From: Deltaproteobacteria bacterium RIFOXYA12_FULL_61_11
Lineage (GTDB): Bacteria > Bdellovibrionota_F > JAHFAK01 > YA12-FULL-61-11
Direction of reading: 5' to 3'
Assembly: GCA_001799195.1 (NCBI GenBank)
Contig: MGSU01000182.1
Span: 1 to 8,489 of the forward strand
Length of the DNA: 8,489 bases
Shown: in pieces, positions 1-5,090 of the stretch
Numbering within the stretch: the first letter of the stretch is position 1
How the letters are laid out: every line of letters begins with the position of its first letter
The notes under the pieces: model-generated
Seen by the model: only the letters and a program-made list of their open reading frames with translations
Databases searched by the model: none
What the model was told of the DNA's origin: nothing
Position numbers and translations under genes: made by a program

Positions 1-196
1 TGCGTTCGAAGGTCGCGGCGGTCGTGCCCTCCTGCCAGCACGACTCGTCCCATGCGATTGCCTCGAGTTCCGCGAGTGCTTCTTCGCTCGGCCCGAACAG
101 GGGACAGAACGCGCTGGTCGCGCCCCCGCTGCCGAACCCGAACACGCCGAGCAGGATGAAGGAGAGGAGCAGCGTGCACACGCGACTGGTCTTCAT
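1..196 (-). CDS. Small secreted protein of unknown function, N-terminal part only
   Basis: The reading frame starts at ATG 196 and runs off the left edge after 65 codons, so the C-terminus is missing. The start MKTSRVCTLLLSFILLGVF is a standard signal peptide: a short positive stretch, then a hydrophobic core of about 15 residues, then small residues (GSGGATSA) suited to signal peptidase I. The predicted mature part begins near AFCPLFGPSEEAL and contains two cysteines (FCPLF and ESCWQ) in the visible portion, which may pair in the periplasm. A GGGGGT ribosome binding site (201-206) lies just upstream, matching the G-rich sites of other genes here. It has its own possible promoter and is probably not part of the kinase operon, whose stop is 179 nt upstream. 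I do not recognise the family; the export call is the only functional statement I support. Confidence 0.7.
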   Translation of the reverse strand, partial: MKTSRVCTLLLSFILLGVFGFGSGGATSAFCPLFGPSEEALAELEAIAWDESCWQEGTTAATFER

Positions 197-375: not shown

Positions 376-2181
376 TCAGGTGCGCCGCCAGGTCCTGCCG
401 ATGCGTTCGATCGTGGCCGGGGTAAGGGGAGCCTCGAAGTAGGCGGCAGCTCCGGCGGCCAGGGCGGAGGGTTCCATGACCGAGGCCGAAGAACACGACA
501 GGGCGAAGATGGTGAGTTCCGGGCGCAGAGCCTTGAGTTGGCAGATGAGGCCGAGGCCATCAGCACCTTGCCCCTCGCCGAGGTGGAGATCGGTGATCAC
601 CACCTCGACCGGATGGTTGGCCAGCAACTCCAGGGCTTCCTCGGGACCGGCCGCGGTGAGGATGGCGTGCTCGGAGGTCGCGCGAAAGCGTTGGGCGAGC
701 AGAGTCCTCGTTCCCTCGCGGAGGAGGGGGTCGTCGTCGACGATCAGTAGGGCCGAGGTGGTGGTTGCTCGTGGGGTAGCTTCTGCCAACACCACCTTCG
801 GTAGGGGAGCGTGGCGCATCGGACAGATGCCGGTCGCGAAGTCGCTGCCCCGGGGATGGAGGGGCAGCGTCTGTCCCGGTTCTGGATGGTCGGAGCAGGG
901 CAGGGTGAAGCTGAAGCAGGTTCCGGTTGCGACCGCGCTCTCGACCCAGATCCGCCCGCCGTGGTCCTCGACCACCTTCTTGCAAATGGCCAGACCGAGG
1001 CCCGTCCCGCCTGGTTTTCCATGGGTGTAATACGCCTCGAAGAGGTGCTCTTGCACCTCGGGTGGGATCAAGCTGTTGCTGTTGGTGATGGAGAGGCGCA
1101 TCCAGTGGCCGGGGGTATCCGGCAAGGCCTCGCTCGCAAGGTGGATAGTACCCGTGCCGTGCATGGCCTCGACCGCGTTCGCAAGGAGGTTGATGAATAG
1201 GCGCAGGATCTTGGTCTCGTCGACGTAGGGAGTGAGCCGAGGGGTGAGGTCGTAGGCGAGGGTTACCTGGCCGGGGTGGGTAGTGAAAACCTCGGTGGCC
1301 GCGGTCGAGAGGAGGTCCTGGAGATTGCAGGGCTTCTGGTGCAGGTTGCCGGTGGAGGCAAACTGCAGGACCTCAGAGAGCATGGTCTCGATCCGCTTCC
1401 CACTCTGCTCGATTGCGGTCTGCCAACGCGGGAGGAAATTGGGGTCACTACCTTGCTCTGGCAACAAGGTAAAGAAAGTGCGCATGGCCGCGAAGGGTTT
1501 GCGGAGGTCATGAGCGAGCATGGCCGAGGTTTTGCCGATGGCCGCGAGCTTGGACTGCTCTTGCAAGGAACGGGTGAGGTGGCGGAAATCGGTTTGGAGG
1601 TCGGCGAGTTCTTTGATGTTGGGGGGAGGTTCCTCGGGCCTCAGGAGGCGTTGGATCGGGCCGACGAGTTCCTTGCCGAGATGGCGATGGAAGCCGTGGA
1701 GCACCAGCAGAATATAAGCAAAGAAGCACAATAATAATAACGAATAGGGCCCCAGCATGACGAGATAATCAAGTGCGGGGTAGTCGAGCACCAGTTCGAG
1801 TTGGCGGGTGGACTGATGGAGCGGCGCGCGGATGCGGAGGGTTGTCAAAGATAGGGGCTCGCGACAATGGTCGCCGAGGTCGTAGAAGGCGACCCGAAGC
1901 GCCCCGGTACGGTCGCAAATGGCCAAGAAGGTTGCCCGGTAATGACTGCGGAGCAATTCCGCGTGTGCGTTCATGGAGGTCTGGTCGCGGCGATCGTATT
2001 GCATCCCCAGGGCAAGGGCGTCATCCAGGATCTCTTCTTCGCGTTGCTGGTGCCACTTCCGACCGAGCATGGCCGAGAGGAGGAGTTGGAAGCCGAGGGT
2101 CACGAGCATCAGGACGAGGATCTTGCGGTTGATCTTGGCGCTGAACCACGTTTGGATCGAAGGTGCGTTTGACTGTGTCAC
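376..2181 (-). CDS. Transmembrane hybrid sensor histidine kinase with C-terminal receiver domain
   Basis: A 601-residue membrane sensor kinase. Order of parts: transmembrane helix about 21-39; periplasmic segment about 41-138 with two cysteines (C89, C106); second helix about 139-162; HAMP-like linker to about 210; dimerisation/phosphoacceptor helix with AHDLRKP (H224); ATPase domain with N-box [10 protein letters not shown] (331-340) and G-box GGTGLGLAI (391-399); linker of about 45 residues; receiver 476-601 with acidic pocket D482/D483 and phosphoacceptor D531. The usual D-x-G-x-G ATP-lid box reads NSNSLIPPE (N367), a variant also found in kinases with an N-S-G-S box. The receiver has alanine (A584, in YFEAPLT) where the conserved lysine should be. 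GTG 2181 is chosen because AAGGAG lies 7 nt upstream and the start overlaps the stop of the radical SAM gene (GTGA). A longer frame to 2319 would run far into that gene. No Hpt or DNA-binding domain follows, so the downstream partner is encoded elsewhere. Confidence 0.88.
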
Positions 2182-3284
2182 GAACCCACTCCTTGGCGTT
2201 GTTGCGGATCGGTTTCCGACCAGCAACCGGGGTCTTTGGCGTGAAAATGCCCGTGCTCGGCATAGGCCGCGTTCTGATCTCCGCCAGCGCAGCGGGAATA
2301 GGTGGAACATTGTCGGCACGCGTCGACGGGTTCAGTGCGAAGGGCTTCGAACTCGGGTGAGAAATAGAGAGATCTCAGGTCGTGCTCGAAGATGTTGCCC
2401 AGCACGAGACCGAGACGGCTCGTCGGACGCAGTCCGCCATCCGGTTGCACGGTGAGTCCGTAAAAACCCTGGCCGAATTGCCCGCCGGCTTTGGGCTCGA
2501 GGAGGTGCATCAAGGGAAGGCCACGGTTGGTGGTGAGACCAATGCGGTTGGAGGCCTCCAGGATAGCGCAATAGGCTCGGCGGAGAGCTTCGCCGTGCAA
2601 GGGGGTGCAGGCCGGATCGGCGGCAGGTCCCGAGGCGCGGCCGGAGGGGATGAGACGGCAAAAATCCATGGACCTCGCACCGAGCCGTCTTGCCAGGAGG
2701 AACATGGCCTCGATACCATCGGCGTTGTGGTGCGAGAGCGTGCATTGCAGTGAGAAGGGAACTTTGTGCATCCGCAAGATGGAAGCCCCCCGGCAGGTTG
2801 CCTGGAAGGAGCCAGCGCCTCGAACCCGGTCGTGACTGGGCTCGTCCCAACCATCGAGGCTGAGCTGCACTGTGGCTCGGTGCTGGTGCAGCAACCGTGC
2901 GCGCTGCTCGTCGAGCAGTGTTCCGTTGGAAAGGACGCTGAGTTCGCAGCTCGGTACAAGCTCTTGGGCCAGGTTCAAGAAACGTTCGAACCAGGGTAGG
3001 AGGAGGGGTTCTCCGCCGGCGAGAGCGACATGGGACCTCGTAGCGAGGAGTGTGGTCAGCTCGGCGAACTGGAGGAGGATCCTGCGCCACTGTTCCGGTC
3101 CGAGTTCCTCGACTGCGCGAGGAGGGCCGTCGCCGAGATAACAGTGGCGGCAGCGCAGATTACAGCGCCAGGAGGGTTCGCATTGCAGGGTAAAGATGCG
3201 CTCGTGTGTCGCTGCGGAGGCGATAAGCCAACTTTGAGCTCGATCCAAGAATTTTGTCCACCAGTTCGTCCTCGCGACGCTCAT
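2178..3284 (-). CDS. Radical SAM protein with partial SPASM domain, likely peptide-modifying
   Basis: A 368-residue radical SAM enzyme. The SAM/[4Fe-4S] motif is CNLRCRHCY (C41, C45, C48); GGEP (90-93) is the SAM-binding motif after the second strand; SLDG (142-145) is also typical. The C-terminus resembles SPASM: a PDGGLRP..LGNIF segment (281-299), then C323-x2-C326-x5-C332 and C354. The SPASM seven-cysteine pattern is incomplete: the usual PC reads PT (T288), and the cysteine after x3 is D336. SPASM enzymes mature peptides and proteins (PqqE, anaerobic sulfatase maturases, many RiPP maturases); NirJ-like cofactor enzymes are an alternative. ATG 3284 is chosen because GGAGGTGA lies 8 nt upstream; GTG 3296 and ATG 3293 sit on or too near that site. 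The neighbouring 50-residue peptide is the natural substrate candidate, but that is inference. No RRE or PqqD-like gene is visible. Confidence 0.88.
2189..2194 (-). promoter_or_regulatory. Ribosome binding site that fixes the GTG start of the kinase
   Basis: AAGGAG on the minus strand is followed by 7 nt and then GTG at 2181. It lies inside the last codons of the radical SAM gene, whose TGA stop shares bases with the GTG start. This 4-bp overlap is a classic translational-coupling arrangement and argues against the longer kinase reading frame. Confidence 0.8.
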
Positions 3285-3292
3285 GACAAGCA

Positions 3293-3300
3293 TCACCTCC
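3293..3300 (-). promoter_or_regulatory. Strong ribosome binding site overlapping the stop of the binding-protein gene
   Basis: GGAGGTGA on the minus strand is a full-length match to the anti-Shine-Dalgarno sequence, 8 nt before ATG 3284. Its last three bases are the TGA stop of the solute-binding protein gene. Ribosomes finishing that gene would be placed on the next start, tying expression of the binding protein and the radical SAM protein together. Confidence 0.8.
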
Positions 3301-4909
3301 AGGAATAGTTTTGGAGGAAGAACATGCTTGCCCCGCGACCTTTGAAGGTGAGCTTACGGTGGTTGTAGAGCATGGAAGCGCTACTGTAGCCGAGGTGTAT
3401 TGCTGGAACTTCAGAATAAATTGCTCTATTTACCTCTTGATATGCGTTGTGTAATTCTTCGAAGTTGAGTAGACTTCTTGCCTTTTCAATGGAATATTGC
3501 ACGTTGGTACCCTCAAGAGATTGCCTCGCCAGGGCGCCATGTGTTCCGAAGAGATGATATAAACCATCCGGATCATCACATCCAATACCTACACTACGAT
3601 AGTAAAAATCCCATGGATCATTGAGTGTCTCAATATTTTTATATTCTTGATAAGACAAGATCCTTGATGCAGGTGTTATCGCAATGCCTAATTGCTGGAG
3701 AAATAGAGCAACAAAATCGTGGAATCGGCTGTTTTGATCTACTCCTTTGAAAATGAACAATGGTTTTCTGTTAATGGTTTCAATAAGTTCATGTATTTCG
3801 TCATTCGTTATTGCTGTTAATTCAACAATGTCTTGTTCTGAAAGGCGCCCCGGTTGGCTTGGCAAAAAGAATTGAATATCAGTTTTTGTTTTATATTTTT
3901 CAAATTCTTGCAGTTGATTAATATTAGAATAAAAGTACCTCTGGAAAAGTTGTCTTGTGTGTATATCTGAAAGAACATTATTACCTTTTGTATTTATAGT
4001 AAGAAATAAGTGCGTATCAATTTTCCCGGGAATTTCTTCGTATCGATTTGTAAAACCATTTGATTTGTTTTTGCAAATATTGGAAGGTGAAACAAATGGG
4101 GGGATAAGTATCATGTCATACGCTTCTTCACAAATGGCGGTTTCGAAACTGTTGCGATCAAGAATATCAATTTCAATTGTTTCAATAGAAGGAGCAGGTA
4201 AGTAATAAGGATTCTTTTGTAAGGATATATGTTGTTCAGTGACTTTTGAAAAGCAGAAGGGACCAGTTCCGAGATGTTGGCCTTGTAATCCAATTTTAAA
4301 AATCGAATACCTGATCCCGCTTATTTCCATGAGGATATCTCGGTAGGGTCGTTCAAACTCAAAGATTAGAGTACCAACGTCTGGAGTTTTAATACCAACA
4401 ATGTCACCACTATGTTCGAAATCCATAAAACCAACTAATGCATATAAAACATCTCTAGTTGCTTGGTTTTTATAAATTGGGGTCTGACGCAGGGATTCAA
4501 GCATGGATTCTTTATACAAGAAAGAACTAATAGGGGAACCGTCGGAAAATCGTTTATCAAGGTTGAGCCAGAAAGTGACCTGTCGTCGGTCTTCACTAAC
4601 TCGCCATTCTTTTGCAATACCAGCAGAGTAAAAACCATTTCCATTATCAATGGTAAGGGGTTCAAAACCTGCTGACAATAAAATATCAGCAAGAGCTGTC
4701 GATTGACGAGCAGGTTTCAATTCCCCAAGTAACCCGTGAACCGCATAGTGTAAAGTCCGCTGGTTGTTGGGCATTATTTCATCACCTTTTGAAAAAAAGG
4801 AATAATATATTGTGAACAGGGCAATAAACCCAGTTATAAGTGAAAAGAAAATGATGAATAACTTATTTTTTATTGTGATTACTCCAGTCGCTAATGGACC
4901 CTCGTGCAT
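3293..4909 (-). CDS. Membrane-anchored family-5 extracellular solute-binding protein
   Basis: A 538-residue protein of the SBP_bac_5 (DppA/OppA-like) fold. Landmarks in the expected order: IAKEWRVSEDRRQVTFWLN with RFSDGSPIS (98-128), GTGPFCF with L..NPYY (214-236), DPDGLYHLFGTHGA (446-459), and a C-terminal PAIHLGYSSASMLYNHRKL (502-520). Family members bind peptides, oligosaccharides or metal chelates in the periplasm. This one has no lipobox or cleavable signal. Instead, K14/K16 precede one hydrophobic helix (about 17-39), implying an uncleaved anchor with the binding domain outside. ATG 4909 follows an AGGA site at 7 nt; a GTG at 5050 would add 47 residues read out of frame through the peptide gene and lies almost at the predicted transcription start. 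No permease or ATPase genes are nearby, so a sensing or capture role is more likely than classic import. The gene is strongly AT-rich (21 of 60 G/C at 3841-3900), unlike its operon partners. Confidence 0.82.
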   Translation of the reverse strand: MHEGPLATGVITIKNKLFIIFFSLITGFIALFTIYYSFFSKGDEIMPNNQRTLHYAVHGLLGELKPARQSTALADILLSAGFEPLTIDNGNGFYSAGIAKEWRVSEDRRQVTFWLNLDKRFSDGSPISSFLYKESMLESLRQTPIYKNQATRDVLYALVGFMDFEHSGDIVGIKTPDVGTLIFEFERPYRDILMEISGIRYSIFKIGLQGQHLGTGPFCFSKVTEQHISLQKNPYYLPAPSIETIEIDILDRNSFETAICEEAYDMILIPPFVSPSNICKNKSNGFTNRYEEIPGKIDTHLFLTINTKGNNVLSDIHTRQLFQRYFYSNINQLQEFEKYKTKTDIQFFLPSQPGRLSEQDIVELTAITNDEIHELIETINRKPLFIFKGVDQNSRFHDFVALFLQQLGIAITPASRILSYQEYKNIETLNDPWDFYYRSVGIGCDDPDGLYHLFGTHGALARQSLEGTNVQYSIEKARSLLNFEELHNAYQEVNRAIYSEVPAIHLGYSSASMLYNHRKLTFKGRGASMFFLQNYSWR

Positions 4910-5015
4910 CGGAAATTCCTGTCTGTTCAGCTTGAACAAACACCTGCAATGCCTGCAACTGGAATGGAAGTAATACAAGGATGGAAATGACTGCCCTGGC
5001 CAAGAAGCTACGCAT
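4863..5015 (-). CDS. Candidate 50-residue exported peptide, possible radical SAM substrate
   Basis: The frame reads ATG 5015 to TAA 4863. An AGGGGGG ribosome binding site ends 4 nt before the ATG, and it is the first start after the promoter at 5062-5090. The product begins MRSFLARAVISILVLLPF, a clear n-region and hydrophobic core, with signal peptidase sites after A22 (LQA) or A29 (VQA). Cleavage at A29 would release a 21-residue polar peptide ending DWSNHNKK. The frame overlaps the first 47 nt of the solute-binding protein gene in another frame. A short exported peptide at the head of an operon with a SPASM-type radical SAM gene suggests a RiPP precursor; W44-S45-N46 and H47-N48-K49 fit the aromatic-x-N/D/K/R pattern modified by three-residue cyclophane-forming enzymes. 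This is inference. It could also be a leader peptide regulating the binding-protein gene, or a chance frame. Confidence 0.55.
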   Translation of the reverse strand: MRSFLARAVISILVLLPFQLQALQVFVQAEQTGISDARGSISDWSNHNKK

Positions 5016-5019
5016 ATAT

Positions 5020-5026
5020 CCCCCCT
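5020..5026 (-). promoter_or_regulatory. G-rich ribosome binding site of the candidate peptide gene
   Basis: AGGGGGG on the minus strand ends 4 nt before ATG 5015. It resembles the sites before the metalloprotease (GGGGGA) and the secreted protein at the left edge (GGGGGT), which supports real translation of the small frame. The spacing is slightly short when measured from the last G and normal when measured from AGGGG. Confidence 0.5.
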
Positions 5027-5061
5027 GGTAGTTTCCATGGTCACTAACACCGGCGAACCAC

Positions 5062-5090
5062 CTCATAGCAGAAACGCGGGCTGTGGTCAA
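5062..5090 (-). promoter_or_regulatory. Sigma-70-type promoter of the peptide/binding protein/radical SAM/kinase operon
   Basis: On the minus strand: TTGACC (-35, 5085-5090, five of six to TTGACA), a 17-bp spacer ending TGC, then TATGAG (-10, 5062-5067, four of six to TATAAT). The TG one base before the -10 adds an extended -10 element. Transcription would start near 5055, giving a leader of about 40 nt before the peptide ATG. This placement excludes the GTG at 5050 as a sensible start for the binding protein. Confidence 0.6.

Follow-up and report, generated by a model that had tools for sequence, protein, structure and literature searches.

A candidate peptide signalling operon with a radical SAM enzyme, a binding protein and a hybrid kinase in a Bdellovibrionota_F genome

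Introduction

What might a bacterium do with an operon that sets the gene for a short, signal-peptide-like product beside genes for a family-5 binding protein, a radical SAM enzyme and a hybrid kinase? Such an operon lies in the window, the whole 8,489-nucleotide stretch of DNA that we analysed, which is one entire contig (MGSU01000182.1; G000:C182) of the 4.64 Mb draft genome of Deltaproteobacteria bacterium RIFOXYA12_FULL_61_11. Firmicutes supply the best-known cases of modified-peptide signalling via a membrane kinase, and a family-5 chitin-oligosaccharide binding protein regulates the hybrid kinase ChiS in Vibrio. The original prediction held that the enzyme modifies the peptide, that the binding protein captures it or a related ligand, and that the kinase reports its presence. 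Here we compare the operon with a second copy in the same genome and with two loci of a relative, and we tentatively favour, as the best reading, ComQXPA-like peptide signalling with a radical SAM modifier and a solute-binding protein (SBP) as co-receptor.

Results

A compact operon behind a conserved promoter

Four genes on the minus strand are close-packed behind a promoter-like sequence, and the predicted four-gene operon is real; its coordinates, protein families, GTGA overlap and stop codon within a Shine-Dalgarno sequence were all correct when checked against the sequence. The first gene (4863..5015) encodes a 50-residue peptide with a signal-peptide-like segment at residues 1–22, a constant part at 1–28 and a variable core at 29–50. 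It overlaps by 47 nt the gene for a 538-residue family-5 SBP (3293..4909; PF00496), which is followed by the genes for a radical SAM/SPASM enzyme (2178..3284; PF04055 and PF13186) and a hybrid kinase-receiver protein (376..2181; HisKA, HATPase_c and Response_reg in Pfam). The start of a fifth conserved gene (1..196, also minus strand) runs to the contig end. This gene encodes a signal peptide, belongs to no Pfam family and is kept after the kinase gene in the second copy of the operon, locus L009 (9574–10464; ~296 aa). An AT-rich gap divides it from the kinase gene, and it may be a separate unit.

The promoter (5062..5090, minus strand), recognised from its sequence and from L009, consists of TTGACC (5090–5085), a 17-nt spacer and an extended −10 element, TGC-TATGAG (5067–5062). 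It had been described as a good promoter. It scores 9/12, and its hexamers and spacing are identical in the L009 operon; it was missing from our promoter-scan list because the −10 element lacks the final T. The DNA around it is 88% identical between the two copies over 180 bp. The stop codon of the SBP gene lies inside GGAGGTGA in the window, where the L009 equivalent is GGAAGTGA, and the enzyme and kinase genes share the same GTGA overlap in both copies. GC content is 32–43% in the window peptide and SBP genes versus ~62% around them.

Upstream of the window operon is a met-zincin gene (DUF4953; 8078–5391, minus strand) for an 895-residue protein with a signal peptide and an acidic C-terminal tail. 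We ruled it out as part of the operon, given that a helicase gene stands at that place in L009. Since the upstream genes differ, what was duplicated is the operon together with its promoter. Permease and ATPase genes of an Opp/Dpp-type importer are absent from the window, from L009 and from both enzyme loci of the relative (L016 and L017). The earlier statement that no transporter genes accompany the binding protein holds for this genome and fails in the relative, where both loci contain an MFS gene.

A radical SAM clade that keeps the Aux II ligands

The window enzyme matched PF04055 (E 1.1e-16) and the SPASM domain PF13186 (1.3e-4), both above cut-off. A paralogue, 83% identical, is encoded in L009 on another contig of the same genome. 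In a tree of the four locus enzymes (window, L009, L016 and L017) and 24 other radical SAM proteins, the four formed one clade with 100/99 support. All of them keep the CX3CX2C motif and the Aux II ligands (C323, C326, C332 and C354 in the window), and in all of them the three canonical Aux I cysteines are gone: most of the SPASM-type relatives compared have these residues, and here they are replaced by F/S/N, T/S and D/N (F, T and D in the window). The clade has neither the complete seven-cysteine SPASM motif, with Aux I and Aux II, nor the Twitch pattern, in which Aux I alone is retained; it displays the opposite of the latter. Judged on these residues, it may be a new SPASM variant defined by the loss of the Aux I ligands and the retention of the Aux II ligands.

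No NCBIfam equivalog scored above cut-off for the window enzyme, the best reaching 97.7 bits versus 400. AhbD and NirJ were among the best NCBIfam models, and a heme-enzyme reading was rejected because these matches were far under cut-off and heme genes are absent nearby. Among solved structures, the peptide maturase SkfB and the sulfatase maturase anSME come closest to the enzyme, in which no leader-binding domain (RRE) was recognised. An enzyme profile run against 386 genomes recovered only generic SPASM enzymes outside the phylum (best 1e-59 versus ≤1e-192 within it). A contig scan gave one 27% match in an Acidobacteria MAG, and plasmids and viral contigs contained no wider homologues. With E values as high as 10 admitted, a radical SAM query matches 34 places in the window genome (4.6 Mb), and many of these are convincing radical SAM genes.

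The binding protein and the kinase

The window SBP matched PF00496 with an E value of 2.7e-19 (70 bits versus a cut-off of 32.4) and has an N-terminal membrane helix at about residues 17–38 and no lipobox. Its nearest solved relatives are peptide- and nickel-binding proteins and, weakly, also the pheromone-binding PrgZ; a search of the 386 genomes with an SBP profile found no close relatives outside the phylum. The kinase consists of a transmembrane segment, a periplasmic domain of ~98 residues (41–138), a second transmembrane segment, and HisKA, HATPase_c and receiver domains. AlphaFold confidence was too poor for use (pLDDT 54 for the SBP and 56 for the kinase sensor).

The peptide core and the binding protein diverge together

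The gene order of L009 is that of the window: peptide (4752–4898), SBP, enzyme, kinase, and then the fifth gene. The window genome holds no copies of the peptide or promoter beyond these two; a weak match at C338:18126 proved unrelated. The two copies have diverged very unevenly. Between window and L009, dS is 0.42 for the kinase, 0.60 for the enzyme and 0.11 for the peptide leader (residues 1–28), and the C-terminal half of the peptide, its core, and the SBP are synonymously saturated. Third-position identity is 0.93 in the leader, 0.26 in the core, 0.41 in the SBP, 0.68 in the enzyme and 0.76 in the kinase (p 3e-6 for leader versus core; p 3e-33 for SBP versus kinase), and at the border between leader and core, nucleotide identity drops from 97% to 44%. 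GC3 is 0.30–0.33 in the SBP genes and 0.70–0.78 in the adjoining genes. Within the kinase, conservation is highest in the periplasmic domain, with 96% identity and a dN of 0.018.

Peptide core and SBP thus show cassette-like divergence, and the two copies suggest that they may behave as one exchangeable specificity cassette. The simplest account would be that they were inherited or exchanged jointly, out of low-GC sources, within surroundings that remained similar. Core and SBP have diverged beside a kinase sensor domain that is nearly identical, which supports an arrangement, extrapolated from two copies, in which the SBP would read the peptide and the kinase would read the SBP. Two further stretches stand out in the comparison of the copies. 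Enzyme residues 277–322 (window 2456–2319), in the auxiliary-cluster domain, have a dS of 1.65 versus 0.4–0.65 around them, and this block is possibly a second exchanged segment. Promoter and leader DNA (window 5110–4930), the non-coding part included, is closer between the copies than the kinase gene, which is maybe a sign of gene conversion or of a regulatory RNA element.

Peptide, enzyme and kinase are linked in four loci

Besides the window genome, the genome database contained a single member of the phylum, a class-level relative (G001) with ~35% GC at its two enzyme loci, whose enzymes show 31–35% identity. The L016 locus comprises a sigma-54 activator, MFS, enzyme, SBP, a second SBP lacking a signal, peptide and kinase genes; L017 comprises enzyme, peptide, MFS, kinase and NtrC-type regulator genes, with no SBP. 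Peptide and kinase genes are therefore present at all four enzyme loci and an SBP gene at three. The expectation that the gene set recurs was upheld for peptide and kinase, found with the enzyme in three further loci, and failed for the SBP at L017. Because that locus has enzyme, peptide and kinase genes, the SBP is not obligatory. We also observed that the first SBP of L016 has KKKK after its helix, that the second (L016:5093-6556) starts MDTKNEFLTLAVP and has no signal or transmembrane segment, and that a second MFS-like gene and an ATP-grasp-like ORF, recognised by eye, are convergent to the operon (L016:8997-10812, minus strand).

Each of the four loci has a signal-peptide-like ORF of 46–50 residues. 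The window and L009 peptides are 72% identical overall (96% in the leader and 37% in the core), and their reading frame is supported by a 1-nt indel directly before the ATG, after which the frame is open, and by the single internal indel, a multiple of three (L009). The two peptides of the relative, 46 residues each with a Shine-Dalgarno sequence and a signal-like N-terminus, had been under our initial ORF size limit; they match one another as homologues, at E 1.4e-6 in a set of 903 ORFs. HMM comparison detected no peptide homology across the two genomes. An unbiased small-ORF screen of 87 kb and 58 kb, which asked for a Shine-Dalgarno sequence, a basic N-terminus, a hydrophobic core and a position outside large genes, passed only the L016 and L009 peptides, the latter out of 814 small frames; those of the window and L017 failed. 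The linkage of enzyme, small ORF and kinase is far from chance.

In all four peptides a conserved L follows a small residue, A or S, in a signal-peptidase-like context. In the window the signal is likely cut at LQA|LQ, and cleavage across the set would fall after LQA, SVA or AVS. Cysteine is absent from all four, which makes thioether chemistry within the peptide impossible. Tryptophan stands 5–7 residues from the end in the window and L009 peptides and at the end in L017, and L016 has F. Both peptides of the window genome carry W-S-N. W-S-N is a motif type used by cyclophane-forming enzymes.

Sigma-54 sites in the relative

RpoN is encoded in both genomes. The sigma-54 site TGGCAYNNNNTTTGCTTA occurs five times in the 2.2 Mb of the relative, and a reversed control occurs nowhere. 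Three of the five sites are at radical SAM loci: one precedes the MFS-led operon of L016, another the L017 enzyme gene, and the third a truncated sigma-54 activator gene beside L017. NtrC-type genes adjoin these loci. With perfect sites and NtrC-type activators nearby, positive feedback would be expected, and this logic supports a circuit in the relative. Neither the window nor the L009 operon has a sigma-54 site, so a feedback loop is a reading of the relative and not of the window; no separate response regulator gene was found near either of these operons.

The relative also has at least five near-identical copies of a gene for a REC-less NtrC-type activator (starting MKRAFITEHGPLVRRLSELRKLKGSTITIHIYGESG), each preceded by a sigma-54-like site; contig ends fall inside them (L017:1-129, minus strand, and the contig ends of C64, C91, C14 and C54, loci L069, L076, L077 and L078). 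Four copies adjoin NtrC-type regulator genes. At L069, L076 and L077, an SBP, a hybrid kinase and an NtrC-type regulator form a recurring module, accompanied by methyltransferase/SDR, hydrolase/MATE-like or aldolase genes and no peptide that we could see. The SBPs of these peptide-less loci belong to SBP_bac_5, SBP_bac_1 and Peripla_BP_6, and several such loci end in the repeated activator gene with its sigma-54 site. On this gene content, SBP and kinase are habitually paired in the lineage.

Discussion

A tentative circuit and its rivals

We infer a circuit that runs from the enzyme's substrate and its modification, through export and binding, to the identity and direction of the signal and its feedback. 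The radical SAM enzyme would act in the cytoplasm on a pre-peptide with a Sec-type signal and modify it; the signal peptide would drive export and then be cleaved, giving a mature peptide of 24–28 residues. This peptide would be captured by the membrane-anchored family-5 SBP, and the hybrid kinase, through its small periplasmic domain, would take up the signal from the loaded SBP. The kinase of the relative could then act through NtrC-type activators on sigma-54 promoters before the peptide/enzyme operons, giving positive feedback. Peptide core and SBP might be swapped jointly to change specificity. Several points count against signalling: radical SAM enzymes do not usually act on small peptides exported by Sec, and the enzyme has no recognised leader-binding domain; the peptides of the two genomes lack detectable homology; neither copy in the window genome has a sigma-54 site or separate response regulator; L017 has no SBP and one SBP of the relative has no signal or transmembrane segment; and no means of crossing the outer membrane is encoded.

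The peptide could instead be an autoinduced RiPP natural product such as a bacteriocin, with SBP and kinase inducing production on sensing the product or a competitor peptide. The gene content is of the same kind as in lantibiotic-like regulons, the core is variable, and the MFS gene of both relative loci could serve export or immunity. However, both copies in the window genome lack an immunity gene, a dedicated protease and a peptide exporter, the peptide has a plain signal sequence, and the ~24–28 residues after the predicted cut are not visibly membrane-active; we consider this reading unlikely. We regard with similar doubt a three-component environmental sensor, in which the SBP senses an outside oligopeptide or solute for the kinase, and peptide and enzyme are the controlled output. 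Its main support is the set of SBP, kinase and NtrC loci of the relative, with other SBP families and enzymes and no peptide, which allow a plain sensor, and a general sensor beside an unrelated peptide is possible. A nutrient sensor of this kind is CuaD-CuaSR (PMC10384115). Against the sensor reading, peptide core and SBP diverge jointly, unlike the rest, and L017 joins enzyme, peptide and kinase without any SBP.

The peptide might also be a small membrane regulator of the kinase, a connector like MgrB or SafA held by an uncleaved N-terminal anchor, with the enzyme acting elsewhere. Its length of 46–50 residues is similar to that of known connector peptides, and it has one hydrophobic segment and a kinase gene in the same operon. 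We nevertheless think this quite improbable, because of the signal-peptidase-like context in all four peptides, the constant presence of a peptide gene beside this enzyme clade, and the kinship of the enzyme with maturases of peptides and sulfatases. On balance a modified-peptide signal with an SBP co-receptor is favoured over an antimicrobial, a solute sensor and a connector peptide. We advance more cautiously still, as somewhat less likely, the full proposal: that a poorly sampled diderm phylum has a family of Sec-exported autoinducer peptides, modified by a radical SAM enzyme with only an Aux II cluster and read by a membrane-anchored peptide-binding protein and a hybrid kinase, with specificity changed by joint core/SBP swaps.

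If true, such signalling in a Gram-negative-type genome, through a radical SAM enzyme and a periplasmic co-receptor, would extend bacterial communication in both its chemistry and its phylogeny. With its two diverged cassettes, the window genome offers a ready test of signal specificity, and the enzyme clade would help to show what Aux II alone does.

Comparison with known systems

The original prediction knew of no named system with this gene set, and we likewise found none in a limited library of open-access papers on radical SAM enzymes, RiPPs and two-component autoinducers. Like SkfB and anSME, the enzyme has a radical SAM core and an auxiliary-cluster domain, and those enzymes act on peptides or proteins. 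SkfB is a Twitch enzyme that keeps only Aux I (PMC6231123), whereas the enzymes described here have the Aux II ligand set alone and no recognised RRE. Radical SAM RiPPs have been tied to quorum sensing in the SCIFF ranthipeptides and streptide (reviewed in PMC8326336), which likewise combine a SPASM-type enzyme beside a short peptide with a link to cell-cell signalling. Those systems have Rgg/SHP or unknown regulators and RiPP leaders, in contrast to the cysteine-free peptides, signal-like N-termini and lost Aux I ligands seen here.

ChiS and LuxP/LuxQ are systems in which an SBP works with a kinase. In the three-component system CuaD-CuaS-CuaR, the SBP CuaD binds the kinase CuaS (PMC10384115), and there, as in the window, an SBP gene without its own transporter lies beside a membrane kinase gene. 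Unlike that system, the operon has a peptide and a radical SAM enzyme, and its SBP is of family 5 and membrane anchored.

The favoured circuit would work like ComQXPA of Bacillus, in which ComQ modifies ComX and ComP senses ComX (PMC4008528). The window operon is not a ComQXPA member because the defining isoprenyl transferase (PF00348) is absent, the putative modifier being a radical SAM/SPASM enzyme (PF04055/PF13186). It differs further in the signal-like N-terminus of the peptide, the added SBP, the hybrid kinase and, in the relative, the sigma-54/NtrC output. The peptides resemble those of ComQXPA in part: the latter have 52–73 residues and Trp within 5–10 residues of the C-terminus, and ours have 46–50 residues and an aromatic residue near the C-terminus, which is W in that range in the window and L009, W at the very end in L017 and F in L016. 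Both systems place adjoining genes for a modifier (a putative one here), a short variable pre-peptide and a membrane kinase together (PMC4008528), and in both the peptide is the most variable component and the kinase side the most conserved.
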